Assembly (NCBI GenBank): GCA_027080135.1
Contig: JALWUJ010000148.1
Coordinates: 1 to 39,454, forward strand
Direction: 5' to 3'
DNA length: 39,454 bases
Source: Flavobacteriaceae bacterium
GTDB taxonomy: Bacteria > Bacteroidota > Bacteroidia > Flavobacteriales > Flavobacteriaceae
Notes under the pieces: generated by a model
Told to the model about the DNA's origin: nothing
The model's input: only the letters and a program-made list of their open reading frames with translations
Databases searched by the model: none
Position numbers and translations under genes: made by a program
Shown here: positions 23,237 through 39,260 of the stretch, in pieces
Layout: each line of letters begins with the position of its first letter
How positions within the stretch are numbered: the first letter of the stretch is position 1

Positions 23237-24223
23237 TTATCGGTAGAGTTTACTATTCATATTGTTTTTACCTTTTGTACACGGACAATCACTTAAACTT
23301 TGCAACAAGTCAAAACCAATAGTAATAGCATGTGTTCCAGAATTATAGGTAGTTAAATCGTTAAGTGTTACTTGATAGGCATAAGCTACATAGAAAAATG
23401 ATTTTTTAATACCAGCCATAGGCCCAATATTTAGGGGCTGCATAATTTGGTCGTTTAAAAAGCGATAGGAAGCTCCTATCCAAAAGAAATCGTTTTTTCT
23501 GTTATATCTTTTATATTTAAAATTTAAATCGGTGCTAGACCTTCCATCACTGGTAAATAGCTGAACAAAAACAGAAGGTTCAAAAGCAGAGTTCCCCGAT
23601 CTATTAATAGTATATCCAGAATAAAATTGAAGGTTTAATAATGAATTTGGCTCTTGAATAGCAAAATCGTTGGTATCTTTTGATAGTAAGTTGTTAGCAT
23701 TTACACTCAACCAAAAATCTTTAATTCTGTATAGGGCTCCAATATCAAAATTATGGTTTATAATTGATCGGTCATCGGTTACAATAGGATCTATAGAAGG
23801 GTTTTCATAAGTAGTTTCAAAATTTTCAATAGCAATTCTAAACGAATTAACGTTATAAGATATACCTAAAGATAAATATTGTTCAGAAGTATAATCTAAA
23901 ATTAAATGGTGTGCAAACGAAAATTTTAATCCTTTTTGCTCGGTATTTCCATTTCGGTCGTTATAAGCCGAAACTCCAGCTCCTGAACGACTAGCAATTC
24001 TAATGTCTGAATATAAAGCTTGATTTTGTGGTGCATCTTTAATTCCCACCCATTGGGTTAACCCATTAATTCTTGTTCTAAAGTTATTACCAATTCCGGC
24101 AAAAGTTGGAGAAACTACAAAATCGTTATCTGCCAAATATTGGGTAAATACTGGCAGGTTAAGTTCTTGACCATAGCTTTGAAAAGCAATTATTATGAGC
24201 AAATATTTTAGTGTGTTTTTCAT
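23237..24223 (-). CDS. sprF: PorP/SprF family type IX secretion membrane protein (SprF)
   Basis: A 328-residue outer-membrane protein with a signal peptide (MKNTLKYLLIIIAFQSYGQ) and the PorP/SprF hallmarks: LPVFTQYLADNDFVVSPTFA at the start of the mature part, GLTQWVGIKDAPQNQALYSD, and barrel strands up to GTHAITIGFDLL. Members pair with a specific T9SS type B cargo; in Flavobacterium johnsoniae SprF is needed to place SprB on the surface. Here it follows the SprB-like giant by 46 bases and is the last gene before a strong terminator. The C-terminal LSDCPCTKGKNNMNSKLYR tail is short. The symbol rests on gene order as well as family. Confidence 0.88.
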   Translation of the reverse strand: MKNTLKYLLIIIAFQSYGQELNLPVFTQYLADNDFVVSPTFAGIGNNFRTRINGLTQWVGIKDAPQNQALYSDIRIASRSGAGVSAYNDRNGNTEQKGLKFSFAHHLILDYTSEQYLSLGISYNVNSFRIAIENFETTYENPSIDPIVTDDRSIINHNFDIGALYRIKDFWLSVNANNLLSKDTNDFAIQEPNSLLNLQFYSGYTINRSGNSAFEPSVFVQLFTSDGRSSTDLNFKYKRYNRKNDFFWIGASYRFLNDQIMQPLNIGPMAGIKKSFFYVAYAYQVTLNDLTTYNSGTHAITIGFDLLQSLSDCPCTKGKNNMNSKLYR

Positions 24224-24269: not shown

Positions 24270-27200
24270 TTACCTATATAGGGTAAAATGTCCAACAAAG
24301 TCACGGCTTTCTTCTCCTTGTATATCGGTTTCAACAACATACCAATAGTCTCCGGCAGGAAGATCATTTCCTTTATATGTTCCATCCCATTTCTCTCCTG
24401 CACGCAGGGTGACAACTTTACGTCCATAGCGATCATAAATTGAAAACATTAGATTTGGATAATTTGGGGCACATCCAATAGTCCAACCATCATTTATTCC
24501 ATCGCCATTAGGTGTAAAATAATTAGGGATACATATATCAATAAATTCTTTTGTTATTACAGCAACTGCAGTACATCCACTACTGTCTGTTACAACCACT
24601 TCAAAAGTTCCAGATTCGGTAATAGTGAAAACATTTTCACTTCCAAAATCTTCACCATTCAGACTGTATGTATATTCTCCATTACCTCCAGTTGCTACAG
24701 CTACAATTTCGTTTAGCTCACCATCTTCAAGCAGTAAATCTACAGAAGAAACTGCTTCAATATCAAAAAGCTCAGTCATTACACTACATCCGTTGGCATG
24801 TTGAACAGTAATATAATTGTCGGTTCCTGGTGTTACGTTTGTAAATATATTACTGTTTTGTAAAGGGCCGTCATTTATAGAATATTGCAATTGTGAAACA
24901 TCTACAAGTTCTTCATCTACAGTAACGGTAACAACATTGGTAGATACATTATCAAAACATTGAATTTCTACTTCTACTTCTGGAACTATAAATGCAGCTT
25001 CAGGGAAAGTAATATTCCATTCCGATTCACATCCAAAGAAATCACGAATGTAAACTAGGTGATCTCCACCAATTAAGTTTTCAAAATCAAAAATTGTTTG
25101 GGTGGCTTCTCCAGGAATAAAAGGTCCTTCGGGATTATCTAAACTTACACTATATGGAGGAGTTCCTCCTTCAATTTCAATACTGAAAGATCCGTCTTCA
25201 TCTCCTGCACAAACTTCAGGAAATATTGAATCTGGTACAATAGAAATTAAAACTGCAAGCGGTTCTGAAACTTCAAAATTAAAGGTTACAAAACATCCTT
25301 GTTCGTCTTGTACAATTACATCGTATTCTCCAGGAGCAAGGTTTTCGAATGTATTGGTTTCAAAAAACTGATTTAAGTTAGGTGAAATTGCATACATAAT
25401 TAAACCGGTTCCTCCAGTCGCTTGTATTTCTAAAACTCCATTATTTTCACCATTACAAAGTACATCAGTTACATCGTAGGTTACTTCTAAACTTGAATCT
25501 GGTTCGGTAATGGTTATTTGATCTGAAGTAGCTAAACAATCACCACTTACTACTTCTACTACATAAGTACCTGCAACTAAACCAGTAAATATTCCTGGAA
25601 TATCTTGGTCTGCTGGTATTACGTTTCCTACCACATCTTGAAGAGTGTAGGTATAATTACCCAAACCTCCTATAGCAGTTGCAGAAATAACTCCAGTGTT
25701 GTCTCCCGCACAATTTATTTCAGGATTAGTAGCTTCTAAAACTATTTCTAAATCTGGTAGTGGATCTATAGTAATTTCATTTGATGTTACATCCACACAT
25801 CCATTAGCATCTCTAACAAAATAGGTATAAACTCCTGGTGGCACAGAGAAAGTAATTGAGTTTGTAAAAGTTCCTAAAACAGTTGAAAAATAAATATTAT
25901 CACTGTACTCATAAGCTCCTGTACCTCCAGTTGCACTTAAAGTAAGTTCCGTTTCTATTAAACAGGTCTGTGTTGTATTTACAACTAAACTAGACTCAAT
26001 AGGGTCTGGTTGATTAATAATAACAGGTAAGGAAGTAAAAGTACAATTGTAACCATCTGTAATAGTTACAGAGTAAGTTCCAGCACCTAAGCCTTCAAAA
26101 ACATTTGAAGTTTGTGGGCCAGAGATAATAACTGGATTTGGTAGGGTTCTAGTTAAAGTATAAGTATAATTACCCATTTGACCACCTGTTACGTTTTGAA
26201 CTGTAAGTATTGCAGTTTGATCGTTAAAACAATTAAGCAGTGTTGTGTTAGGAACAAAATCTGCATCAATTGGGTCGGGTTCTTCTAGTATAATAGTTTC
26301 TGATTCAATACAACCATTATCATCTCTTACATTTACTATATATGTTCCTGCACTTAAATTAGAAAACATATTATTTGGTGAATATGGAAAAGTTGCCGCA
26401 CCTGTTAATTCGTATTCATACGGACTTGTACCTCCACTTGCAATAGCAGTTATTACTCCTAAGTCATTAGTACAAGTTACATTTCCTGTTTCTTCAACAA
26501 CTAATGTTAAAGGTGTTGGGGGCGAACCAATAGTAACAACATTAGTAGTAGTCATACAGAAAGGAGTATTTGTTTCTGTAATTTCTACATAAAAATTACC
26601 AGAAGCCAAGCCAGTAATTATTTCTGGGTTGGTGGAAGTATTTGCTGATACAGGACCTCCAATTGGTGTACCTGAATCATCAAACAATTGGTAAGTATAT
26701 GCACCTATATATCCTGAAATATTTAATTCTAATTCACCATTGGTATCACCAAAACAGTCGTTTACTTCTCTAAGGGATAATACAGCATCTATATTATCAT
26801 AAGGAAGAACTTCAAAGGGATTGGTTAAAAAATAACAGTTGGTATCCAAATCATTTACCTGATAATAATATGTACCTGGTGTAAGAATATCAAAAACATT
26901 GGAAACCTGTGGAGTTCCATTAGGCAACAAGATATATTCAAAATTACCCGAACCTCCTGTAACTATTATTTCAACGGTTCCTGTTTGGTTACAATCTATT
27001 GGAGTTACAATAGAAACATCTGCTGCTGTAATGGTTGGTAACGGATCTATAGTTACTGTGTTGGTAGCTACACAATTATTTGCATCAGTAACATAAACAG
27101 TAATTACTTGTGTTGTTCCATTATCTACTACTTCAAAAATATTAGAAGTAAAATAATTGGTTCCATCTATACTATATAAATAATTAGCAGTTCCTCCTAC

Positions 27201-30200
27201 TTCAGTAATTGTAATAGTAGAGGTTGAAACCGTATTGTCTGAATTACAAGAAAAAAGAGTTGCTGTTGCAGAAACAGTTAATAATGGGGGTTCTGTAATT
27301 ATTACATCTGCTGTGGTTATACACCCTCTTCCAGAAGTTACTTGTACAGTATAAATACCAACTGATAATCCTGTAAAGACATTTGTGGTTTGCGGACCAA
27401 CTACAATGGGTGCAATAATTTCATAAGTATATGTTGGATTGTCATTTCCTGGAAGTAAATCAACTACAATCTGACCATCATTACCACCTTGGCAATTTAC
27501 ATTTGTAACATCCGTAGTAAAAGTAACTGGAATTGCACTGTCTAAAGTAACCGAAACATCTTCCGTACATAAAGTTACGGTATCTGTTACTGTTACTGTA
27601 TAAGTACCCGAAGGTACTCCTGAAAACACATTTCCTGCTAATACTATTGAAGGAGGGTTTGGACTTATTGTGTAAGCATAGTTACCTGTACCTCCATTAG
27701 TAGTAACAGTAATTTCTCCATCGTCATCGGCACAAGTTGTTAAAGCAGTTATATCTGTGGTTATACCTAAAGGAGGTTCAATAACAACAGTAACTAAGTT
27801 ACCACAACCATTCACATCATTTACTTCAACGGTATGAGTACCAGAAGTTAAATTTGAAATTGAAAAAGGAAAGGTTTGTGTTTGAAAAGCACCACCATCT
27901 ATACTAATGCTATAAGGTGGTGTCCCAGCTGTTACTAGATTAACATCTATATTAAATTGTCCTTCTGGTGTAGCACATTGGTTGGTTGTAACCGCATTTA
28001 TTACAGGTGAAGGATCCATACCAACTACTTGTACAGGACTGGTCATAATACAACCATAAGCATCCATAACATGAACATAATAACTTCCCGCATTTACATT
28101 AAATGTACTTGTTGAATTCCAAGAAGGGTCTGTTGGTAAAGGAGCACCAGGAGTTGTAGTTAATTGGAAAACATAAGGAGGTGTTCCGTTTTGGGCAATG
28201 GCACTAATTACACCTGAATTTAAATTACAATTTGCATTCTGATCTACGGTTGCTGCTAAGCTTAATAAAAATGCTGATTCTGAAATAGAAAAAGGAACGG
28301 TAACCACACTACAACCTGCATTTGGTCCTGAAGTTTCTTGTATTAACACAAAATAGGTTCCAAAAGGTAAAGGTCCTAAATCTGAAACCACCAACGAACC
28401 TCCAGCTGGCACTGTACCTGTTCCAGAAATTCCAGTAGTATTTAAAGATAGAGAATCGTAGATTTCATAAGTAACATTAACTGCTGAACCATAAATACTA
28501 TTTATAGTAAACGATACATCTCCATCTGCACTACCTGTACAAGTAATATTATCTGAACTTACAGCAGTTGCTGTTAATGTAGAAGTTGTTGGAATTGGCA
28601 ATGCAGCTGTTTCATAATAACTACAATTAGTAGATTGGTCATACACTATAAATGTATAGGTAACACCTGGAATTAATCCTGTAAAAATAGTGGATTGACT
28701 TCCAGCGGGGTTTTCAGGAATCCAAGCTCCAGCAGGAAGTGGATATACTGTTCCTGGTCCTTGATAAATAGCAAAATAAAAAGGTCCTGAACTTGACAAA
28801 GCTGAACTTACAGTTACTACCGCCTGACCACCAGTGGTACAATCAACAGTGCTTGATATTGTAATATCTAAATCGTTTGGTGGAGAGGCTATAAGTACAT
28901 TTTGGTATAGAACAGAACATCCATTTGAATCAACAACATTAATTTCATATAATCCAAAATCAATCACATTAAATGTTACCGAAGTCGTACCAGATGCATT
29001 TAACTCAGTTGCGTTATATCCGTTTGTACCAGTTACAATATAGTTGTAAGGTGGCGTTCCACCAACAACACTATTTATAATAATAGAACCTTGTGAAACT
29101 CCACTAGAAGTACAAGTTATGTCAATCGTAGTATAATCTACAACAATTGGATCGGGTTCTGTAATAGTAATAGTATCTGTACCTGTACAAGAATTTCCAT
29201 CTGTAACGGTAATTGTATAATCACCCGCTGGTAAACCAGTAGTCTGTGTTCCGTAATCTGTACCAGATGTATTGTTATAAACATTTATCTGAAACGGAGG
29301 TGTTCCAGAGGTGGGATCTATGGTAATATCAATAGCACCATTATCATATCCGTTACACAAAATAGGTTGGGTTTGTGTAATTAAACTAATTGCTGGAAAA
29401 GTAATTGGATTAACTGTAATTATAGGCGTTGTAGTTGTACAAACTGTAGCATCTGTAATTTCAAACTGATAGGTTCCTGAGGTTCCTGTTGAATAGGTAA
29501 ATGAGGTTCCTGTTGCTCCTAAAGCACTAAAAGGAGCCCCATTAAATGATACAGCATAAGTATAAGGTGCAGTTCCTCCTGTAATACTTCCTGTAATAAT
29601 TGCATCAGGAGAAGCGGTACAATCTAAGCCTTTTGTTAAAACCGCATTGGCTGTTAATTCTGGAGCGATGATAACAGCAGGTAAAGTGGTTATACAACCA
29701 AAAGCATCTCTTATGGTAATGATATAACTACCTGGACCTATATTTGCAAATATATTTGTAGATTGATACGGCCCTCCGTTTATGCTATATTCAAAAGGTG
29801 CTTGACCAGAGGTAACATCTATTACAATTGTAGCATTGTTATTAGTGTCATAACAAAGATCAGATGTAACACTAATACTTGCAACTGGCGGAAGTGGAAT
29901 AATTAAATCAAATGTATCTGTAACCACACATCCGTTGGAGTCTTCAACAGAAATAGAATAGGTTCCTGCTTGGGTTAAATTCACAAACGTATTACTTCCT
30001 TGTGAAGGCAAAACGGTTAAATCTGGAAGAGTAAGTGTATAAACATATCCTCCCCAACCACCAGAGGTATTAATTGTTGCACTTCCGCTTCCAATACAAG
30101 TTATTGGTGTTGTATCTATAGAAATGGTTAATGCACTAGTTGGCTCATTAATTATTACAGTATCTGTAACTTCACAATTTGTGATTGTATCTGTAACTAC

Positions 30201-33200
30201 GATGGTATAAGTACCTGCAGGAAGGCCCGATACAACAACTGGTGATGTTCCAGCAGTAGGAGCACTTCCATTAATACTATATTCAAAAGAAGTAGATCCC
30301 GAAACTATAAATTGTAATGATCCATCTGTACCATTAAAACAACTAACATCGTTTAAAGTTTCAGAAAATATATCAATCGTAGGTAAAGGATCAATTACAT
30401 AAGTTTCACTATAAACACAATCGTTAGCATCTTTTACCTGAAATGTATAAATATCTGGAGCTAATCCAGTAAAAACAGGAGAGCTTTGATAAGGAGTTGC
30501 GGCTGTTGCTGGGGCTGTTATTTGGTATTCTAAAGGTGCTACACCTCCTGTTGTTCCTGTAATAGTAACCGAAGTAAGGTTTGTTGGACAAGTTAATGGT
30601 GAATTGCTAAACATTAAATCTGTTGGTGGATCTAAAGGTAAAATGGTAATTTCATTTGTTATAAATGTACAACCATTGGAATCCATGATAGTAACAGTAT
30701 ATGTTCCAGCAGTTAAGTTGTTAAAATTAGGATTTGATTGAAAATTTACACCATCAATGCTGTATGTATATGGAGGAGCTCCTCCCAAAACGTTAGAAAC
30801 AGTAATAGTTCCTGTTGAAGTACAAGTATAAGGAGCCGTTAACTCTGCAATACCAGTAATAGCAGTATTTATATTAATAGTAATAGTTTGTGGTTCTGAA
30901 ACACACACCGATGGTCCATTGGTATATTGAACTACTACATCGTAATTTCCTGGTGCAAGTCCTGTAAAAACATTAGAATTGCTAAAAGTTATTCCTCCAT
31001 CAATACTAAATTGAAGGGTATTTCCATTGGGGTTTGTAACATTAATTGTAATGGTACCCGTATCGCCTGCATCGGCACAAAGAATATCTGTTGTAGTAAT
31101 ATTAAATTCTGGAGCTGGAGATTCTTCAATTGTAATAGTAGTTTCAGCACTACAGTTATTAGAATCTACTACGGTAATATTATAAACTCCAGGGCTAGTA
31201 ACGACATATTCAGGAACGGTTTGAAAAACGGTAGTACTGTTTATAAAATAAAAATATGGGGCTGTTCCTCCTACTGGGTAAATAGTTATTTCACCATCAT
31301 TACAAGTTAATGGAACTGTGATTGCTGCTGTTACTGTTAACAAAGGAGGATCTATAATTTCAATATCTTGAGTATAGTAACAACCATCTTCTGTTTCAAC
31401 AACAACAGTATAAGTTCCGGGATTTAAGTTTTCAAAAGAATAGTTGTTTTCTACAATAGGACCAACACTATTTACCAAAACTCCACCTGAATAAATTGAA
31501 AAGAAATACTGGGGTTCCACATCGTTTGCAGCTAAAAAAACACTTCCTAAATCACCATTACATAAAGGTTGATGGATATTTATAGTTACTGTAAAATCTC
31601 TTTCTCTAATGGTAACATCAGGTATTGTAAAAACACAAGCACCTTCTGGCACTCCTATTTGCTGAATGTAAACAGTGTACAATCCCGGAGTAGTAATTGA
31701 AAAATAATTACTGCTTTGATAGTTTACGCCATCAAGGCTAAATTCATAACCACTAGGAACATTACCAACAGTTATGCTTCCAGGTGTGGTACAAATTATA
31801 TCGGTTACTGTTACTGTGGGGTCAAGAACATTTTTGTAAACATTAAAATAAAATTGATTGAAACATCCACCGTCATAATTTATTGTAAGTCGGTATTGTC
31901 CAGCGGTATCAGCAATAAAATCATCTCCAATTCCAACCTGATTCCAAGTACATGAACTATCTTCGTTAGCACAATTTGTGTCTCCAACGGGAGCACAACT
32001 ACCTTCATCTAATTTTTCCCAAACTACTGTAATGGCACTTGCTATATCAGTTTGAATTTCGGTAAAATCGTTTTCACCACATAGATATATATTGGGTAAA
32101 AGTTTTCCATCATTAGGACAGGTAACTACTTCGTCTGCATATGGAATTACAGGATTTGTAATAGTTCCTCCATAAAGGGTAACATTGTATTCTTGAACAA
32201 TAGATCTACAGGGAGCAAGAGCATTATCAAATGAGTAATAAACCCCTGTTGCTGTTACAGTTATTGATTGTCCTGTACCAATAACTGGGGTTCCTGTTGG
32301 GCTAGTAGACCAGGAATAAGAATCGTAACCATCAGCCGCTGTTAAAACGATACTATCGCCGCAAAGTGTTTCGTTTTGTGTAAAAACACAATCGTCGAGA
32401 TCTGCTAAAAAGTTAGTGGCTTGAGGTGTAATTAAACATCCTGTATTTGAGTTAATACTAGGGTCATCAGTAATTAAAAAATTGGGGTTAAGAGTACCTT
32501 GGTATGTTGCAAATGCCTGATTTTGAATAAGGTCTGAACAAGCATCTGCTAATTGTTGACAAGTATCTACAACTTGGGCTTCAATTCTTATTTCATAAAC
32601 AGGGTCGTTTTCTTCAACTAAATAATCTTCAACTGAAAAAACAATTTCACGGGTAACAGGATTATAACTTGATACGGTAACACCAGGGGGGAGTACCAAA
32701 TCTGTTGGGAAATTAAAAATAATATTGATAGGAAGAATATCTCTAATTGTAAAATTTGTTGCATTATCGTTTCCTATATTTTGAAAACCTATAACATAAT
32801 TTAAAGTTTGTCCTAATGCAACTGTTTGCCCTCCGATATTATTTCCAAATTCATCTTCAACAATTTTTGTTAGTACAATATGAGGTTCGATTATTTCAAC
32901 AGCAAAGGCAAGAAAATATTGAAAATAGGTGTCGCCACTAGTTTCTAACCTTACGGTTGCAGAAGTGGCATCGTTTGCTATAACCGTATTACCTGGATTA
33001 GGGACAACCATTACACCTGTATCAAAACCAAGCGTATTAGTACTATTTGGGTTTCGGTTATTAACAGGTAATGCGTTTAATTGTGTTACCGAACTATTAA
33101 AATAATTATTTGCGGGTCTATCTACTGTAGAAAGTGTAGTCCCGTTTAATTTTAAACGATCTCCTGTAATGGGTTTGTCACCCTCTAAAGTGGCGAAAGC

Positions 33201-33953
33201 AAAGTTTGCTCTAACAGGTGCTGGTGCGGGTACAGTTCTAAATCCAGAAACAGGGATATTTAGATTAGGATTTTGTGCATAACTTATAGCACTAAAACCA
33301 TCAAAACTAGTAATGGACTTTCCAGGTAGTGTTGGGTCTTCATAAACAATAAAAAGAGACCATCCAGCAGAGTAACCCGTACCATTATAAGGATCGAAAG
33401 AACCTGTTTCTCCCAATGCACTAGAAACATTAGCAATAGTATATGTTCCTAAATTATTTGACAATCCTGTAACGATAGATGTAACATCTGCATAGCAAGC
33501 ATAAGGAAAACTATCTCCTCCATCTACTGAAACTCCGTTTGCATCAAAAATTACTGTTCCTGTAATATCGTTATAACCACCAGTAGGTCCTTTAAATTTA
33601 ACTTCTGTAAAAGGATCGTCTCCTTTAGTAACAGCACTCCAGTATAAACCTGCATATTTAATTTCATAACAGTTTGGGTTTGGAATTTCTAAGTCAGCAC
33701 TCGAAGAACTAAAGGTATTTGGGTCTCCATCAATATCTATATATTGCATATCTACATTATGATTATACGCAGAATTATCATTAAATGGGTTATTATCAGG
33801 TCCTAAAATATTATTACCAATAAGAACAATATCTCCCTTAATATCTTGATCGTACCTAGGAGTAAATGGAATAAAATTTTGGGCAAAAGTTTGAATGCCG
33901 AATAATAGAAATAATAGAAGTGTGGGGTATCTTTTAAAAGTAGGTTTGTTCAT
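24270..33953 (-). CDS. sprB: SprB-like giant gliding adhesin with T9SS type B sorting domain
   Basis: A 3227-residue cell-surface protein. After a signal peptide (MNKPTFKRYPTLLLFLLFGIQTFAQ) come an N-terminal beta domain (about 30-350) and a DUF11-like domain (LTKIVEDEFGNNIGGQTVAL, near 358-480). Then there is a run of about 29 SprB-type repeats of 75-90 residues, each ending in a V-x-V-x-D-x-x-G-C motif such as VTIMDSNGC, ITVVDSNNC or VNVRDDNGC. The last 87 residues are a type B sorting domain (CIPNYFTPNGDGINDGWTIG ... DRYGRKV ... GEKWDGTYKGNDLPAGDYWY). SprB of F. johnsoniae is about twice as long, so this is a shorter version. It should be carried along the cell surface by the gliding motor. 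The frame is unbroken and sits between sprD- and sprF-type genes. Confidence 0.88.
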   Translation of the reverse strand: MNKPTFKRYPTLLLFLLFGIQTFAQNFIPFTPRYDQDIKGDIVLIGNNILGPDNNPFNDNSAYNHNVDMQYIDIDGDPNTFSSSSADLEIPNPNCYEIKYAGLYWSAVTKGDDPFTEVKFKGPTGGYNDITGTVIFDANGVSVDGGDSFPYACYADVTSIVTGLSNNLGTYTIANVSSALGETGSFDPYNGTGYSAGWSLFIVYEDPTLPGKSITSFDGFSAISYAQNPNLNIPVSGFRTVPAPAPVRANFAFATLEGDKPITGDRLKLNGTTLSTVDRPANNYFNSSVTQLNALPVNNRNPNSTNTLGFDTGVMVVPNPGNTVIANDATSATVRLETSGDTYFQYFLAFAVEIIEPHIVLTKIVEDEFGNNIGGQTVALGQTLNYVIGFQNIGNDNATNFTIRDILPINIIFNFPTDLVLPPGVTVSSYNPVTREIVFSVEDYLVEENDPVYEIRIEAQVVDTCQQLADACSDLIQNQAFATYQGTLNPNFLITDDPSINSNTGCLITPQATNFLADLDDCVFTQNETLCGDSIVLTAADGYDSYSWSTSPTGTPVIGTGQSITVTATGVYYSFDNALAPCRSIVQEYNVTLYGGTITNPVIPYADEVVTCPNDGKLLPNIYLCGENDFTEIQTDIASAITVVWEKLDEGSCAPVGDTNCANEDSSCTWNQVGIGDDFIADTAGQYRLTINYDGGCFNQFYFNVYKNVLDPTVTVTDIICTTPGSITVGNVPSGYEFSLDGVNYQSSNYFSITTPGLYTVYIQQIGVPEGACVFTIPDVTIRERDFTVTINIHQPLCNGDLGSVFLAANDVEPQYFFSIYSGGVLVNSVGPIVENNYSFENLNPGTYTVVVETEDGCYYTQDIEIIDPPLLTVTAAITVPLTCNDGEITIYPVGGTAPYFYFINSTTVFQTVPEYVVTSPGVYNITVVDSNNCSAETTITIEESPAPEFNITTTDILCADAGDTGTITINVTNPNGNTLQFSIDGGITFSNSNVFTGLAPGNYDVVVQYTNGPSVCVSEPQTITININTAITGIAELTAPYTCTSTGTITVSNVLGGAPPYTYSIDGVNFQSNPNFNNLTAGTYTVTIMDSNGCTFITNEITILPLDPPTDLMFSNSPLTCPTNLTSVTITGTTGGVAPLEYQITAPATAATPYQSSPVFTGLAPDIYTFQVKDANDCVYSETYVIDPLPTIDIFSETLNDVSCFNGTDGSLQFIVSGSTSFEYSINGSAPTAGTSPVVVSGLPAGTYTIVVTDTITNCEVTDTVIINEPTSALTISIDTTPITCIGSGSATINTSGGWGGYVYTLTLPDLTVLPSQGSNTFVNLTQAGTYSISVEDSNGCVVTDTFDLIIPLPPVASISVTSDLCYDTNNNATIVIDVTSGQAPFEYSINGGPYQSTNIFANIGPGSYIITIRDAFGCITTLPAVIIAPELTANAVLTKGLDCTASPDAIITGSITGGTAPYTYAVSFNGAPFSALGATGTSFTYSTGTSGTYQFEITDATVCTTTTPIITVNPITFPAISLITQTQPILCNGYDNGAIDITIDPTSGTPPFQINVYNNTSGTDYGTQTTGLPAGDYTITVTDGNSCTGTDTITITEPDPIVVDYTTIDITCTSSGVSQGSIIINSVVGGTPPYNYIVTGTNGYNATELNASGTTSVTFNVIDFGLYEINVVDSNGCSVLYQNVLIASPPNDLDITISSTVDCTTGGQAVVTVSSALSSSGPFYFAIYQGPGTVYPLPAGAWIPENPAGSQSTIFTGLIPGVTYTFIVYDQSTNCSYYETAALPIPTTSTLTATAVSSDNITCTGSADGDVSFTINSIYGSAVNVTYEIYDSLSLNTTGISGTGTVPAGGSLVVSDLGPLPFGTYFVLIQETSGPNAGCSVVTVPFSISESAFLLSLAATVDQNANCNLNSGVISAIAQNGTPPYVFQLTTTPGAPLPTDPSWNSTSTFNVNAGSYYVHVMDAYGCIMTSPVQVVGMDPSPVINAVTTNQCATPEGQFNIDVNLVTAGTPPYSISIDGGAFQTQTFPFSISNLTSGTHTVEVNDVNGCGNLVTVVIEPPLGITTDITALTTCADDDGEITVTTNGGTGNYAYTISPNPPSIVLAGNVFSGVPSGTYTVTVTDTVTLCTEDVSVTLDSAIPVTFTTDVTNVNCQGGNDGQIVVDLLPGNDNPTYTYEIIAPIVVGPQTTNVFTGLSVGIYTVQVTSGRGCITTADVIITEPPLLTVSATATLFSCNSDNTVSTSTITITEVGGTANYLYSIDGTNYFTSNIFEVVDNGTTQVITVYVTDANNCVATNTVTIDPLPTITAADVSIVTPIDCNQTGTVEIIVTGGSGNFEYILLPNGTPQVSNVFDILTPGTYYYQVNDLDTNCYFLTNPFEVLPYDNIDAVLSLREVNDCFGDTNGELELNISGYIGAYTYQLFDDSGTPIGGPVSANTSTNPEIITGLASGNFYVEITETNTPFCMTTTNVVTIGSPPTPLTLVVEETGNVTCTNDLGVITAIASGGTSPYEYELTGAATFPYSPNNMFSNLSAGTYIVNVRDDNGCIESETIILEEPDPIDADFVPNTTLLNCFNDQTAILTVQNVTGGQMGNYTYTLTRTLPNPVIISGPQTSNVFEGLGAGTYSVTITDGYNCTFTSLPVIINQPDPIESSLVVNTTQTCLIETELTLSATGGTGAYEYSDNIYFSTVLGTFTNSITFSVPPGVYTYFVRDANGCVDVTSNEITIDPLPDLEIVLEATNPEINCAGDNTGVISATAIGGLGNYTYTLQDVVGNVIPADQDIPGIFTGLVAGTYVVEVVSGDCLATSDQITITEPDSSLEVTYDVTDVLCNGENNGVLEIQATGGTGLIMYAISPNLNQFFETNTFENLAPGEYDVIVQDEQGCFVTFNFEVSEPLAVLISIVPDSIFPEVCAGDEDGSFSIEIEGGTPPYSVSLDNPEGPFIPGEATQTIFDFENLIGGDHLVYIRDFFGCESEWNITFPEAAFIVPEVEVEIQCFDNVSTNVVTVTVDEELVDVSQLQYSINDGPLQNSNIFTNVTPGTDNYITVQHANGCSVMTELFDIEAVSSVDLLLEDGELNEIVAVATGGNGEYTYSLNGEDFGSENVFTITESGTFEVVVTDSSGCTAVAVITKEFIDICIPNYFTPNGDGINDGWTIGCAPNYPNLMFSIYDRYGRKVVTLRAGEKWDGTYKGNDLPAGDYWYVVETDIQGEESRDFVGHFTLYR

Positions 33954-34029: not shown

Positions 34030-36390
34030 TTAATTTTCAATTTTTACAATAGTTATTTTTTCATTATAAGGTTCGTTTGATTTTGATTTTAATGCTCTTT
34101 CTGTTTCATTTATATTGGTGAATTTTCTAGAATAGATATAATATTCATTGGTTTTTACATCAAAAAAGAAATCTACTTCTTTATTTCCTGTTGATATAAC
34201 TTGAGATAAAAATTCATCTCGTTTTTTAATGTTGTTGTGTACAGCTAAAACAAGATAATATCCATTTTCAGCATGTTCTACATTTTTAACAATTTGAATA
34301 TTACCGTTTCTTTCTCTACCAAAATCTATATCTTTTAATTCCAAAGGTGTTGTTCTTAAAGAAACTGTTTGTTTTAAACTCTTCAGGGTATTTCTGTCTT
34401 TTGAATATCTATCTTGATCATTGTCATACGCAGCTCGTTTAATACGGCGTTTTCTTTCAAATTCAGTTGCAATTGATATTTCTTTTAGAGAAGATACTAA
34501 TTTTGCTTTTTCTCGGATTGCTTTTTCTTGTTCTGCTTTTAATTCTTCAATTCTATTTTTATAATATAAATTAGTTTCATCATTAAGGTCTGGGAAAGAA
34601 ACCATGCGTTCTTCTAATAGTGATTCAAGTTGTTTTATCTTTTTATTTTGTTTTAATATTATTTCGTCTAAATTTATCTTTATAAGTTCTATAGCCTCGT
34701 TTTCTTTACTTATACTTTTGAAAGGTTTTGGTTCTACATAGATATTTTGTTCGCTTAAATCGTTTTCTTCTTTTAAATCTTTTAAATCTTGTTCTTTTAT
34801 GGCCACTGCTGCAGCTAAGTCTGATAGTAATTTAGTTTGAAGCACATTTGATTGATCTGTTTCTGATGTTAATTTACTAATAGATTTTCCAATTCTATCT
34901 GTAGGGTTTACTAATAACTCATTTTTATTTTTTTCTGCTTCTTGTCTTGCCTGTTCTTCTGCTGCTATACGAGCTTGTTCCTCAGCTTCTTGTCTTGCTT
35001 GTTCTTCGGCTGCTATACGAGCTTGTTCCTCAGCTTCTTGTCTTGCCTGTTCTTCGGCTGCTATACGAGCTTGTTCCTCAGCTTCTTGTCTTGCTTGTTC
35101 TTCTGCTGCTATACGGGATTGTTCCTCAGCTTCTTGTCTTGCCTGTTCTTCGGCTGCTATACGGGATTGTTCCTCAGCTTCTTGTCTTGCTTGTTCTTCG
35201 GCTGCTATACGAGCTTGTTCCTCAGCTTCTTGTCTTGCTTGTTCTTCGGCTGCTATACGGGATTGTTCCTCAGCTTCTTGTCTTGCTTGTTCTTCGGCTG
35301 CTATACGGGATTGTTCCTCAGCTTCTTGTCTTGCTTGTTCTTCTGCTGCTAAACGGGATTGTTCTTCAGAATTAACTTTTGTTTCTGCAGGAGGTGTTTT
35401 AGCAACTTTTTTCTTTTTCTGATTATTATCAAAATTTAAAAGACCTGCTATTTCATCGTCTCTACTATAATCGTAATAATTATCGTTTTTAAATCTATAT
35501 GCGAGAGTAATCTCGTGAGAAGCACCAAAATCTGAAAGACCTCCTAAAGATTTTTCATAATTGTATTCGATAGCGAATTGTGGTGTTAAATTAACACCTA
35601 ACCCTCCAGAAAATCCATATTTTGAATTATAGCTTACTTGTGCCCAAATTCCTTTAGGTATGGTAATCATGGCTTGTCCTGAGATAACAGTGGCGTCTTT
35701 TTGAAATTCGGTTCTTCCTAATAAAGACATTCTACTATCACCAAAAAAACCATAGCCTCCAAAGTATCCCGTGTACATTATATGTCCTTGAATTCCACTA
35801 ATTGGATTTTCTTTCACCATTGCTGAAGTGTTAAAGTTATAAAGAACCAAGTTGTTGTATGAAATTCCAAAATCCATAAAGCCTGTTCCATAATTGAATC
35901 CAGGATTAACAGTTATTAAAAAATTGGAAGGAATATTATCTAGAGCTGGGTCATCAAAATTAGTAATTACTTTTCCACTATTTAAACCACTTTTGTAAGC
36001 TCCTACATTAAGTCCAAAAGTAGCATTACTATCTTCTTGAATTCGGACGTTATAAGCAAAATTTACTATCCCTCCAAAGGTAGTAAGCACTCCATAATTT
36101 TGTTGAAAAACTCCAACACCAGTACCAATATTTTCTCTAAAACGACCAGAATAGCCAAACAAATAAGTGTTTGGAGCATTATCTACACCTACTAATTCTC
36201 TTTTGTTAGTCGCTGTAATGTATTTGTTTTGTTCTCTTACAAAGCTAAAGGTTGGATTAACTATATACCTATTAAAAGTTAATGAGTTTCTAACAGGAAT
36301 ATCAAGTGCTACAACACCGTCTTCAACTTGTGAATAGCTTATTTGGAAAATACCCAACAAAAGGATGATATGTAATGCTATTTTATTCAA
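34030..36390 (-). CDS. sprD: PorP/SprF-type barrel fused to charged repeats, coiled coil and SPOR-like domain (SprD position)
   Basis: A 786-residue protein in four parts. After a signal peptide (MNKIALHIILLLGIFQISYS), residues 25-320 are a PorP/SprF-type barrel (FNRYIVNPTFSFVREQNKYI, LVGVDNAPNTYLFGYSGRF, GVGVFQQNYG, ending HEITLAYRF). A basic linker (QKKKKVAKTPPAE) leads to nine 16-residue repeats of the form RIAAEEQARQEAEEQS at about 341-484. A long helical region with further coiled-coil stretches follows. The last 90 residues (NGYYLVLAVHNNIKKRDEFL ... NEYYIYSRKFTNINETERAL) have the strand-helix pattern of SPOR peptidoglycan-binding domains. Its ATG lies one base after the sprC stop and sprB follows after 76 bases. 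The symbol is by position in the sprC-D-B-F order; the barrel family is clear, and the SPOR call is tentative. Confidence 0.75.
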   Translation of the reverse strand: MNKIALHIILLLGIFQISYSQVEDGVVALDIPVRNSLTFNRYIVNPTFSFVREQNKYITATNKRELVGVDNAPNTYLFGYSGRFRENIGTGVGVFQQNYGVLTTFGGIVNFAYNVRIQEDSNATFGLNVGAYKSGLNSGKVITNFDDPALDNIPSNFLITVNPGFNYGTGFMDFGISYNNLVLYNFNTSAMVKENPISGIQGHIMYTGYFGGYGFFGDSRMSLLGRTEFQKDATVISGQAMITIPKGIWAQVSYNSKYGFSGGLGVNLTPQFAIEYNYEKSLGGLSDFGASHEITLAYRFKNDNYYDYSRDDEIAGLLNFDNNQKKKKVAKTPPAETKVNSEEQSRLAAEEQARQEAEEQSRIAAEEQARQEAEEQSRIAAEEQARQEAEEQARIAAEEQARQEAEEQSRIAAEEQARQEAEEQSRIAAEEQARQEAEEQARIAAEEQARQEAEEQARIAAEEQARQEAEEQARIAAEEQARQEAEKNKNELLVNPTDRIGKSISKLTSETDQSNVLQTKLLSDLAAAVAIKEQDLKDLKEENDLSEQNIYVEPKPFKSISKENEAIELIKINLDEIILKQNKKIKQLESLLEERMVSFPDLNDETNLYYKNRIEELKAEQEKAIREKAKLVSSLKEISIATEFERKRRIKRAAYDNDQDRYSKDRNTLKSLKQTVSLRTTPLELKDIDFGRERNGNIQIVKNVEHAENGYYLVLAVHNNIKKRDEFLSQVISTGNKEVDFFFDVKTNEYYIYSRKFTNINETERALKSKSNEPYNEKITIVKIEN
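34939..35370 (-). repeat. nine tandem 48-base repeats inside the sprD-like gene
   Basis: Nine head-to-tail 48-base units encode RIAAEEQARQEAEEQ followed by Ala or Ser; the first has RLAA and the last ends EKNK. The units differ at only a few positions (GCT/GCC, and ACGAGC against ACGGGA, which gives the Ala/Ser swap). Such near-identity points to recent expansion by slippage or unequal crossing-over, so copy number may vary between strains. No stop occurs in two antisense frames, which explains the open plus-strand frames there. Confidence 0.92.
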
Positions 36391-36391
36391 C

Positions 36392-37858
36392 TTATTTAAT
36401 TATAGTTATAGAGCCTTTTTTTTGTTTTCCTTCGGGTGTTGTAATTATATAATAGTAAACCTCATTTACACTACTATTATTACTATAATCTTGTGGCCAA
36501 TTATTTGAATAATCTGTAGTATTAAGTTCTACTTTTCCATTACTAGAATAAATAACTACTTGCGTGTTGCTACCGCTTACATATTGTAAGGGTATAACCC
36601 AAGTATCATTAATTCCATCACCATTGGGGCTTATTATATTTGGAATGTTTTCAACTTCTGGAAAAGGGTTAATGTATTCTTCAACCAAAAAAGTAAGTTG
36701 GTCTGTAATATTACAGTTGTTGTTTTGAGTTATAGTAACTCGATAATTTCCAAATTCTGTAACTGTAAAAGTGTTTTGTGTTGCATTAGGGATTTCTAAA
36801 TCGTTTAAAAACCATTGAAATTCTGGATTAATTGCTGAAGTAGTAATGGTTACTTCTAAAGATTCTCCCTCTTCTAACATGACAACACTCTCTACATCTA
36901 TACTACTTGTAAAATCTCCAGCTTCTAAATCTATATTTCCAGTTGCTTCACAACTTCCAAAATTAACGACAACCGAGTATGCTCCTGAGGTGGAAGTTTC
37001 ATAAGTTTGGTTAGTAGCTCCAGAAATTGGGTTTCCTTCTTTGAACCATTGGTATCCGTTTCCTTCAACCGTACTTAAAATCGTAGGGCCATATGCAGAG
37101 CAAAAAGGGTTTCCTAAGCTTGAATCTATTGAAGCAAAAACTACATCGCCGGATGAAGCTTCGGTTACTGTAACCCTATTTGAAAAAGAATTAGATGTAC
37201 ATGTTCCATAGTTGGTTTCGACAAAATATTTTCCTTCTTCAGTAACTGAAAGTGTTTCTCCTTGAGCTACAAAAACAAAAGTGGTTGAGTTAATTTCTTT
37301 AAACCAATTAAAGGTTAAAGAAGGGTAGTTTAAAGGAGAATCGTTATCACCTGTTCCCGGATTGTCTATAGTTAAGAGGTAACTTCCGCCTGGGCAAAAG
37401 CTTGCTGTTGGATTAAGATTATTGATAGTAAAAGGACTGTCTTGCAATTTGTAATAAGCAGAAAAACTAACTGATGGGGTGCTTGTTGCAACAGGATGAG
37501 TGCTTTTTATTTTAAGTTTATACCCTTCACCTGCAGTATCTGTTGGTAGTGAAATATCTACAGAGGCAGGTGAGGCAGTAATTGCTCCTGGATTGGATGT
37601 ATATACAATTGTGGGGTCTGAAAAATCGCCATCTGCATCCGACATTTCAATAATAAATTGATTGTTAGTATCTACACCAGACTCTGGGCTAAACACAAAG
37701 TTGACCGTAAATGAATTAAAAGTATCATTAGCACAAGCTTGTGTGAACTCAAGATTAGGAGTTCCAATAACAATCTGAGCCTTCATTTTTCCAAAGAAAA
37801 AAAACATTAAAAAAAAGACTATGAAAGGGAAACAAGTTTTGGGGATAATTTTTTTCAC
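36392..37858 (-). CDS. sprC: T9SS type B sorted surface protein with Ig-like domains (SprC position)
   Basis: A 488-residue exported protein with a signal peptide (ending FFFFGKMKAQ near residue 28). A first beta domain (about 30-140) has the pattern FTQACANDTFNSFTVNF ... EGYKLKIKSTHPVATSTPSV. It is followed by Ig-like/PKD-like domains with paired cysteines (ASFCPGGSYLLTI, NYGTCTSNSF, GNPFCSAYGPTIL, VVNFGSCEATG, TQNNNCNITDQ) and a type B C-terminal sorting domain (NIPNIISPNGDGINDTWVIP ... VYYYIITTPEGKQKKGSITI). It should be moved across the outer membrane by the type IX system. The stop lies one base before the sprD-type ATG. Position and domains agree with sprC of the gliding operon, whose mutants fail to spread on agar; the exact role is not known. 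Confidence 0.75.
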   Translation of the reverse strand: MKKIIPKTCFPFIVFFLMFFFFGKMKAQIVIGTPNLEFTQACANDTFNSFTVNFVFSPESGVDTNNQFIIEMSDADGDFSDPTIVYTSNPGAITASPASVDISLPTDTAGEGYKLKIKSTHPVATSTPSVSFSAYYKLQDSPFTINNLNPTASFCPGGSYLLTIDNPGTGDNDSPLNYPSLTFNWFKEINSTTFVFVAQGETLSVTEEGKYFVETNYGTCTSNSFSNRVTVTEASSGDVVFASIDSSLGNPFCSAYGPTILSTVEGNGYQWFKEGNPISGATNQTYETSTSGAYSVVVNFGSCEATGNIDLEAGDFTSSIDVESVVMLEEGESLEVTITTSAINPEFQWFLNDLEIPNATQNTFTVTEFGNYRVTITQNNNCNITDQLTFLVEEYINPFPEVENIPNIISPNGDGINDTWVIPLQYVSGSNTQVVIYSSNGKVELNTTDYSNNWPQDYSNNSSVNEVYYYIITTPEGKQKKGSITIIK

Positions 37859-37952: not shown

Positions 37953-39260
37953 TTATTTTTCAGGAAGACTAATTGCTATAATTTTATTAATACGAAGTCT
38001 AAAATCTGGATTATCCAAATTTTTAACATCTATAAAAGTTTCTGTATCTACACCTTGCGAATAAACATTTGCAAATACACTATTCCCATACCAATTTTCT
38101 AGGTCTTCATTATTAGGAACATTTTCAGTAAATATATTTCCTTCACAATTGTTAAAATACATATTAGTAAATTGCATTTTGGAAAGATTATCGTTATCTA
38201 TCTGAATTTTTTTATCTAAAATAACTGCTGGATTAAAACCTGAAAAAATAGTTTTGTTTACAGAAAAGGAAGCTCCGTTTTTAACGTACATTGCTTCATG
38301 AACCAACCCAACTTTAATGTCGGCTTCGAGATTATTACTTAATACCATAATTGTATTGTTGTTAACTTCAAGATGTGATCCTTTTTTAGTTGAATCCACT
38401 TCTTCGATGTTATTATAGGAAGCTAAATATATACTACTAGCTCCTCCCGAAGTTGTATGATATGGAGATTTAATTGCTAATGAATTTGCCAATAAAGATT
38501 GAGCTCCAAAATTAAAGTTAAAATCATTTCTTTTAGCTCTAAAAGAAACCAATTGATAAAGCATGGTGTCTCCTCCTATTATTTGGAAAGAGTTTCCTTG
38601 GCAATAGCTTACCATAATATTTTCCAAAATGGTTTCGTTTCCAACACCTGCAAGTGTAAGACCATTGTAATAACCATAATCTTTGGTTCTTTTACCAGCA
38701 TATTCAATTCTTACATATCTTAATATTCCTGAATTACTCTCAGGATTAGAACCTCCAAATTGTAATACATCTGAAGATGGGGCGTTAAGACCACAAATCA
38801 TTTCCGAATTTTCGGTAAGCATATTGGTTGGTGCATTTCCTAAAATAAAAATTCCCCCCCAGTCACCTTTTTTTCTTACACCTCTATTAGATGAAAAAAT
38901 AATTGGGTCTGTTTGGGTACCTTCTGCCAGAATTTTTGAAGTTCTTCCTATAATTAATGACGCTTTAGATTTGTAATCTGCAAGTATTAGTGTGCCAGGT
39001 TCAATAGTAAGTGTGGTACTATCTGTTACAAAAACATCTCCTAACAAAAGATAAACCTCTTTTTTATTAAGTATTGTATTTTTTGTGATGTTTCCGGAAA
39101 GTATCTGAGTAGGTTCGGGATATTTATTATCACTCGTTTTAAAATCGGTCCAGATACTTAACCAATTTTCATTTCCGTATATACCTTTTTCTTGTTGAGC
39201 TTGTAAACTGAAAATGGGAAAAAGTAGAAAAAAGATAAATTTTAAGTAGTTTTTTTTCAT
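37953..39260 (-). CDS. exported right-handed beta-helix protein upstream of sprC
   Basis: A 435-residue protein with a signal peptide (MKKNYLKFIFFLLFPIFSLQAQ). The mature part carries TLTIEPGTLILADYKSKASL, TDPIIFSSNRGVRKKGDWGG and IFILGNAPTN, then SGILRYVRIEYAGKRT. This set is typical of a Bacteroidota parallel beta-helix family found in many secreted proteins, sometimes mislabelled multidrug transporter. Further helix turns run to about residue 380. I see neither a type A nor a type B sorting domain: it ends LRINKIIAISLPEK. It lies 94 bases before the sprC-type gene on the same strand and is the first gene of the run inside this window. In F. johnsoniae the spr operon also has extra genes before sprC, but I cannot say this is a match. 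Confidence 0.7.
   Translation of the reverse strand: MKKNYLKFIFFLLFPIFSLQAQQEKGIYGNENWLSIWTDFKTSDNKYPEPTQILSGNITKNTILNKKEVYLLLGDVFVTDSTTLTIEPGTLILADYKSKASLIIGRTSKILAEGTQTDPIIFSSNRGVRKKGDWGGIFILGNAPTNMLTENSEMICGLNAPSSDVLQFGGSNPESNSGILRYVRIEYAGKRTKDYGYYNGLTLAGVGNETILENIMVSYCQGNSFQIIGGDTMLYQLVSFRAKRNDFNFNFGAQSLLANSLAIKSPYHTTSGGASSIYLASYNNIEEVDSTKKGSHLEVNNNTIMVLSNNLEADIKVGLVHEAMYVKNGASFSVNKTIFSGFNPAVILDKKIQIDNDNLSKMQFTNMYFNNCEGNIFTENVPNNEDLENWYGNSVFANVYSQGVDTETFIDVKNLDNPDFRLRINKIIAISLPEK

Follow-up and report, generated by a model that had tools for sequence, protein, structure and literature searches.

What does a PorP/SprF barrel protein do with a long C-terminal arm? The question is raised by a gene at positions 34030 to 36390 of a 39,454-nucleotide stretch from a Flavobacteriaceae bacterium (GenBank assembly GCA_027080135.1, contig JALWUJ010000148.1; the whole stretch is called the window here). 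The original prediction, made from the sequence alone, described the product as a PorP/SprF barrel fused to a periplasmic arm with a SPOR-like end, serving as a fixed point tied to the cell wall or as a spacer between the outer membrane and the motor. Judged by its position and architecture, the product is SprD, known already as an outer-membrane protein of gliding motility; this identity and the minus-strand location of the gene are additions to the original prediction. Tentatively, and with somewhat less than even confidence, we favor the reading that SprD is the carrier of the neighboring surface protein SprC and that a SPOR-derived module at the tip of its arm couples it, with no disulfide, either to the gliding track or to a partner that lies in the periplasm close to the wall.

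Architecture and identity of the protein

The gene and its parts are laid out as follows.

34030 to 36390, minus strand: sprD, 786 aa with a TTG start; PorP/SprF barrel, helical arm, three-helix bundle, and SPOR-like head
36331 to 36390, minus strand: signal peptide, residues 1 to 20 (...SYS/Q), judged by eye
35497 to 36306, minus strand: PorP_SprF domain, residues 29 to 298 (Pfam E value, 1e-45)
35368 to 35490, minus strand: basic linker, residues 301 to 341, read from the sequence; no secondary structure predicted
34933 to 35367, minus strand: Ala/Glu/Gln/Arg-rich helical arm, residues 342 to 486, modeled with low confidence (predicted local distance difference test [pLDDT] score mostly 46 to 73)
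34937 to 35369, minus strand: tandem repeat, 9.0 copies of a 48-bp (16-aa) unit with 95% matches
34366 to 34896, minus strand: conserved three-helix bundle, residues 499 to 675, with motifs around DLKDLKEENDLSEQ and FERKRRIKRAAYDN
34033 to 34311, minus strand: SPOR-like head, residues 694 to 786, ending in VKIEN

The barrel assignment of the original prediction was borne out, with scores of 156.9 bits against PF11751 (cutoff, 22.3) and 158.6 bits against TIGR03519 (cutoff, 90.55), and the nine helical repeats that it listed are the copies of the 48-bp unit. AlphaFold2 placed 15 strand segments in residues 57 to 299, or 14 if residues 172 to 179 and 182 to 185 form one strand; PorP and SprF are described as 14-stranded (PMC9143113). 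Foldseek matches to the barrel were mostly outer-membrane barrels, with 8gl6_F, a chain of a type IX secretion system (T9SS) complex, at rank 7. No cysteine occurs anywhere in the protein. The NCBIfam model PRK09510 (TolA) matched residues 324 to 489 at an E value of 2.7e-5, a composition-driven match far under the cutoff. In its build the arm is similar to TolA domain II, a long helical periplasmic stalk of alanine and charged residues, although no homology is claimed. TolA itself has an inner-membrane anchor. On the plus strand (34942 to 35375), two open frames of 136 and 142 aa are only shadows of the 48-bp repeat.

In the window, the gene order is sprC-sprD-sprB-sprF, all on the minus strand. 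The SprD name and the sprCDBF operon reportedly go back to Rhodes et al. in 2011. The neighbors of sprD are as follows.

36392 to 37858, minus strand: sprC, type B T9SS substrate, 488 aa (CHU_C, 48.5 bits with a cutoff of 27; TIGR04131, 39.6 bits with a cutoff of 35)
24270 to 33953, minus strand: sprB gliding adhesin, 3,227 aa, with 19 SprB-repeat stretches and a type B C-terminal domain
23237 to 24223, minus strand: sprF, carrier of SprB, 328 aa
23279 to 23287, minus strand: Cys-Pro-Cys of the SprF tail, residues 313 to 315, with no counterpart in SprD

The TTG start of sprD lies 1 nt past the sprC stop, and a GTG or TTG start lies 1 nt past a sprC-like stop in 11 of 12 near relatives (at locus L049, the gap is 23 nt). 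For some relatives, the reading began at an internal ATG although the likely start is GTG or TTG, so that their signal peptides are missing from the alignment and their residue numbers are shifted. The relatives of the window SprD were the best 80 of 296. An open reading frame (ORF) of at least 700 aa was found downstream in 78 of 80 related loci, and a sprC-like ORF was found directly upstream in 67 of the 70 loci with room for it when an ATG start was required; L037 to L039, missed under this rule, show a sprC-like ORF once GTG starts are allowed. Upstream of sprC, at 37953 to 39260 on the minus strand, lies a gene for a 435-aa protein with no Pfam or NCBIfam match over the cutoff, and a 430-aa ORF of similar look lies upstream of sprC in Flavobacterium johnsoniae (L168).

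Using BLAST, we found the distal part of SprD at E ≤ 1e-40 in 50 of 149 Flavobacteriaceae genomes, with weaker matches in 14 more. Given this wide occurrence, we rejected the arm as the mark of an unusual protein. About 10 of the 50 genomes had frames of only 321 to 484 aa, some at contig ends. In one genus, the sprD frame is broken within the arm (L022 and L091, the latter being Flavivirga aquatica), which may reflect a frameshift, an assembly error in the repeats, or a split gene.

Comparison with SprD of F. johnsoniae

We used published sprD deletion primers (PMC9870892) as an anchor for the F. johnsoniae ortholog. Among 398 genomes from the genus, a single one contained the primer that lies within the final 33 bp of sprD, and there all four primers matched exactly. 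Alignment with this protein, proposed in the original prediction, brought out a shared ENDLSE motif in the bundle, a near-identical end of the head (AIVKVEN compared with VKIEN in the window), and the same place in the operon, after sprC and before sprB. The two proteins also share the PorP/SprF barrel, an Ala-rich helical arm, and a mature chain free of cysteine (in F. johnsoniae, cysteines occur only at residues 12 and 16, in the signal peptide). They differ in length (1,588 aa in F. johnsoniae) and in the arm (1,043 residues compared with 241 in the window by the same measure). A long arm is therefore normal for SprD, and the window version is short.

A length-variable arm and a fixed distal module

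Arm length was measurable in 61 of 82 SprD sequences, the other 21 being truncated or having no match to the motif. From the end of the barrel to the ENDL motif, these 61 proteins had 174 to 1,043 residues (median, 292), whereas from ENDL to the C terminus all of them had 243 to 247. The pooled arms contained 29% Ala, 19% Glu, and 14% Lys, with Gly and Pro at 1.5%. Among 40 sequences, the barrel (69%) and the head (63%; the head pattern missed L203) showed higher mean pairwise identity than the bundle as a whole (54%) or the arm (39%), and the stretch of the bundle around ENDL showed the highest (82%). On these comparisons, the arm looks like a length-tolerant leash ending in a conserved working part.

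By homology with the C-terminal tail of SprF, the arm is periplasmic, as originally proposed: it begins where the SprF tail begins, and that tail is periplasmic and bonded to GldK (PMC12635249). Strand count by itself is insufficient to fix the side of the arm. In F. johnsoniae, the proteome data for the outer membrane include SprD (PMC11885536).

Relationship of the head to SPOR domains

In the predicted structure, the head has strands at residues 710 to 718, 740 to 744, 749 to 757, and 780 to 785 and helices at residues 721 to 733 and 760 to 768. This strand-helix-strand-strand-helix-strand order, predicted with high pLDDT, is that of SPOR domains (PF05036; FtsN, RlpA, and DamX). The strand-helix-strand pattern described originally, from strings at residues 710 to 720 and 749 to 767, forms part of this longer order.

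The window protein itself had no Pfam SPOR match at E values of up to 1 (whole protein) or 10 (distal part; cutoff, 21 bits), and an NCBIfam scan gave none either. SPOR was also absent from the families listed for 64 relatives, a list of 25 out of 89 families that could hide a few SPOR matches. When SprD heads alone were compared as a profile with 26 Flavobacteriaceae SPOR domains, the probability was 8% and the score was 19.1; one column shuffle in 100 scored higher. The connection is made by orthologs. SprD heads matched the ends of orthologous proteins (97.5%; E = 6e-12), and these ends matched SPOR (84.4%; E = 7e-6), scoring above all 100 column shuffles. A pooled profile matched SPOR at 94.9% (E = 5e-8), with a score of 43.0 compared with 15.2 or less in 100 column shuffles; since the pooled set was picked from BLAST hits, this score is partly carried by the orthologs. 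Controls with the SPOR alignment reversed scored 14.2, 11.6, and 13.1.

The orthologs were recognized by their neighbors. At 11 of 13 loci (L170 to L178, L180, and L182), the fusion lies between a SprC-like gene of 725 to 782 residues and a very large ORF, which identifies these fusions as SprD orthologs (the large ORF of L171 lies beyond a 2.6-kb gap, and the L180 and L182 loci are incomplete). The SprC-like proteins of orthologous loci scored 24.9 to 29.4 bits, under the type B cutoff of 35 (five scanned), and those beside PorP fusions of other families scored 45.4 to 54.7 bits, over it (four scanned). Among seven syntenic orthologs scanned, L124, L128, L129, L131, and L133 reached the Pfam SPOR cutoff, L133 exactly at it and L124 with its best SPOR stretch in mid-arm; L126 and L136 did not reach it. 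Membership of the SprD head in the SPOR family by descent is thus supported indirectly, through orthologs and profile intermediates. The SPOR-like end of the original prediction stands at the family level, but a direct Pfam match of the window protein was not obtained.

It is very unlikely, in our estimate, that the head is not SPOR and shares only a common alpha/beta layout with it. Such a reading would account for the missing Pfam match and the weak direct profile comparison. It would also fit the searches of known structures: an ordinary SPOR profile finds the CwlC and FtsN structures, but the ortholog-end and pooled profiles do not. Whether the query was the entire protein, its distal part, the ortholog ends, or the pooled profile, sequence searches of the PDB returned nothing beyond matches due to chance or composition. 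Foldseek and VIA-align searches with the C-terminal model did not reach the head, as three-helix-bundle matches filled the lists. It does not explain why five of seven syntenic orthologs reach the Pfam SPOR cutoff while their ends align to the head, or why the pooled profile scores above every shuffle.

In RlpA and FtsN, a strand 1 Gln and basic residues of strand 3 touch the glycan, with main-chain contacts dominating (PMC6895207). SprD heads differ from canonical SPOR domains at these sites. All 25 aligned heads have Val or Ile in place of the Gln, the GSF stretch is AVH in 24 of them and AVQ in one, and the aligned strand 3 basic position is Tyr or Phe. The canonical Gln is also missing in 18 of the 26 ordinary Flavobacteriaceae SPOR domains, so its loss in SprD argues only weakly against binding to the wall.

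BLAST with the distal part found a related end in PorP/SprF fusions, HU-CCDC81 proteins, a LysM protein, and OmpA proteins. In the HU-CCDC81-type proteins L117, L118, L120, and L121, the last domain is a SprD-like head ending in KVEN, preceded by a Pfam SPOR domain in the two that were scanned (L117 and L121). L119 carries a SprD-like head near its C terminus, after LysM domains, and belongs with ORFs of about 580 to 664 aa in many genomes of genus g128 to a second family with such a head. L123 and L135 are OmpA/PD40 proteins with an N-terminal SPOR-like domain at about residues 46 to 153 (Pfam SPOR E values, 0.07 to 0.08).

Tail classes of PorP/SprF carriers

Carrier tails were compared in an F. 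johnsoniae-like genome (G564, L210 to L219), the window genome (L220 and L221), and a sample of 14 genomes chosen for holding a SprD-type match (L222 to L281). The 11 PF11751 proteins of F. johnsoniae comprise six that end in PRFF, three with a cysteine pair in the tail (CPC in SprF, CNC in L189, and CFGC in L192), SprD, and one other. Each of the six PRFF-ended carriers is followed by a PorE-like OmpA-plus-PD40 protein. From its position only, we take the 1,263-residue type B substrate beside L192 to be Fjoh_4750, which is reported to move. The window genome has two further carriers, ending in PRFF and PRYF, both with PorE-like neighbors.

In the 14-genome sample, 84 of 108 PF11751 matches had frames shorter than 400 aa, in agreement with the original statement that ordinary PorP/SprF proteins have about 300 to 330 residues. 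We selected 60 of these 84 short carriers manually, drawing on the upper, middle, and lower parts of the list: 26 had a cysteine pair, 29 had a PRFF-type end, and 5 had neither (L233, among the five, ends in RPRFF without a PorE-like gene next to it and could count as PRFF-type). A PorE-like gene was next to 24 of the 29 carriers with PRFF-type ends and to none of the 26 with cysteine pairs. SprD lacks the PRFF-type end, having VKIEN instead, and the gene next to it is sprB, not a PorE-like gene. By sequence, the tails of type B carriers fall into Cys-pair, PorE-paired, and arm-bearing classes.

Long carriers are not confined to the sprD position. Frames longer than 450 aa numbered 24 in the 14 genomes; 14 were SprD-type, with ends related to the window head, and 10 (in five genomes) belonged to two other classes. 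On this count, we rejected the expectation that long PorP/SprF proteins always lie between sprC- and sprB-type genes. Since the genomes were chosen by a SprD-type match, its presence in 14 of 14 is uninformative on prevalence. Among the 10 other long carriers, Pfam SPOR was over the cutoff in 3, below it in 5, and without a match in 2; by eye, their ends are SPOR-like. Of their two classes (L200 to L204 and L205 to L209), one lies before a LuxR-like regulator and one near a ClpB-like gene (both named by eye), and in the L200 to L204 class residues continue past the head.

All six PorP fusions of other families that we scanned reached the SPOR cutoff of 21 bits; five lie directly after a SprC-like gene, and the sequence read showed no giant ORF following any of the six. 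Two fusions outside the SprD position, L122 and L127, had no Pfam SPOR match. The PorP-SPOR fusion seems to be older than the long arm. At L179 (6262 to 13045), three tandem PorP-SPOR-like fusions of 506, 468, and 450 aa follow a 724-aa SprC-like gene, with no giant sprB within 19.5 kb, and L181 is an isolated fusion.

Cargo and coupling of SprD

Type B substrates are paired with PorP/SprF carriers encoded next to them (PMC12618676, PMC9143113), and SprD is therefore the likely carrier of SprC. SprF is similar in having a PorP/SprF barrel and adjoining a type B substrate in the same operon. Unlike SprD, it ends in a short tail whose Cys-X-Cys is disulfide-bonded, in F. johnsoniae, to the moving track protein GldK (PMC12635249). 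The C-X-C is kept in all 43 SprF proteins from SprD loci, and none of 72 full-length SprD proteins has a cysteine past residue 50. A 2025 paper reports that SprC travels along the gliding track and that this movement is unimpaired in an sprF C324A mutant (PMC12635249). If SprD carries SprC, it should move too, but not through an SprF-type disulfide; with SprC reported to ride the track and SprD having no cysteine to bond, the conserved distal module would be the best candidate for a noncovalent coupling.

We propose that SprD, an outer-membrane carrier of the PorP/SprF type, is most likely responsible for exporting the type B surface protein SprC and for holding it. The short cysteine tail of SprF would be replaced in SprD by a TolA-like helical arm of variable length. 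At its tip, a distal module of fixed length, made up of the three-helix bundle and the SPOR-derived head, would provide a noncovalent link between SprD and either the track or some partner in the periplasm close to the wall. Our data show the gene and its operon, the barrel family, the descent of the head from SPOR (by way of intermediates), the conservation of the distal module, and the lack of cysteine; we infer that SprC is the cargo, that SprD moves with it, and what the head binds. Several points weigh against this proposal. The SPOR domains characterized so far bind wall glycan (PMC6895207), and the proteins sharing the head carry LysM or OmpA domains, which favors the wall as its ligand. 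The mobility of SprC is stated in a single sentence and in a figure legend, with a thesis as the source (PMC12635249), and a need of SprC for SprD in export or movement was not found in the literature consulted. Absence of cysteine is also common: the six PRFF-ended carriers of F. johnsoniae likewise have none outside the first 22 residues.

The head might instead bind peptidoglycan and hold SprD and SprC still, as a guide or fixed point. SprD would then resemble the PorP-PorE-PG1035 system of Porphyromonas gingivalis, in which a PorP-family carrier likewise serves a type B substrate, with the wall-binding part fused on. There, the wall link is a separate OmpA-type protein, PorE, which binds peptidoglycan (PMC9143113), whereas SprD has a SPOR-family domain of its own. 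The pairing of PRFF-type carriers with PorE-like proteins (24 of 29 sampled, all six in F. johnsoniae, and both of those in the window genome) fits such an anchor, as do the lack of a PorE-like neighbor of SprD, as if it were self-sufficient, the SPOR ancestry of its head, and the recurrence of the head in LysM and OmpA proteins. The changed Gln and GSF positions tell weakly against it, and the reported movement of SprC, the likely cargo, is at odds with an immobile complex (PMC12635249). We consider the fixed tether of the original prediction doubtful, with perhaps a minor chance of being right. A similarly small chance goes to dynamic wall contact, in which SprD moves with SprC through its barrel or another partner while the head touches the wall briefly as a skid, a brake, or a sensor of denuded glycan at the septum or poles. 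This would reconcile SPOR descent with SprC movement, and an arm with a minimum length but no clear maximum (174 to 1,043 aa) would suit a leash reaching the wall.

The rigid spacer between the outer membrane and the motor, also raised in the original prediction, is unlikely, and together with an inert low-complexity tail it is the reading that we find hardest to credit. At 1.5 Å per residue, a helix of residues 342 to 486 would span about 22 nm, which is near the width of the periplasm. The arm varies sixfold in length among SprD proteins, however, and that of F. johnsoniae would span about 156 nm if fully helical, far over the periplasm width, and so would not be a rigid radial spacer. The distal module keeps both its length and its sequence and is therefore not inert.

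Placed beside the other carriers, the noncovalent coupling of SprD that we favor suggests a tail code. We offer it with more reserve, as a possibility that may well fail: a cysteine pair would lead to the GldK track, a PRFF end to PorE and the wall, and a SPOR-tipped arm to a third tether, which would hitch SprC to the moving track without a disulfide by means of a head repurposed from wall binding.

Implications

We found no publication linking SprD or PorP to a SPOR domain in gliding or type IX secretion, although subscription papers were mostly outside the search and this is no proof. The SprD gene was already known; as far as literature searches go, the SPOR descent of its head and the wider class of PorP-SPOR carriers are new. 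A 2023 review describes SprC and SprD only as associated with gliding motility (PMC10202324). Their roles in gliding are poorly defined, and a SPOR-family head on the carrier offers a partner of SprD that can be tested. Should SprD ride the track, the gliding machinery of Bacteroidota must have a second coupling that does without cysteine. From the tail class, read in the sequence, one would predict whether a type B surface protein moves, is bound to the wall, or uses an arm. More broadly, the SPOR-related tip of the arm hints at an additional means by which surface proteins may be hitched to the gliding machinery or the wall.

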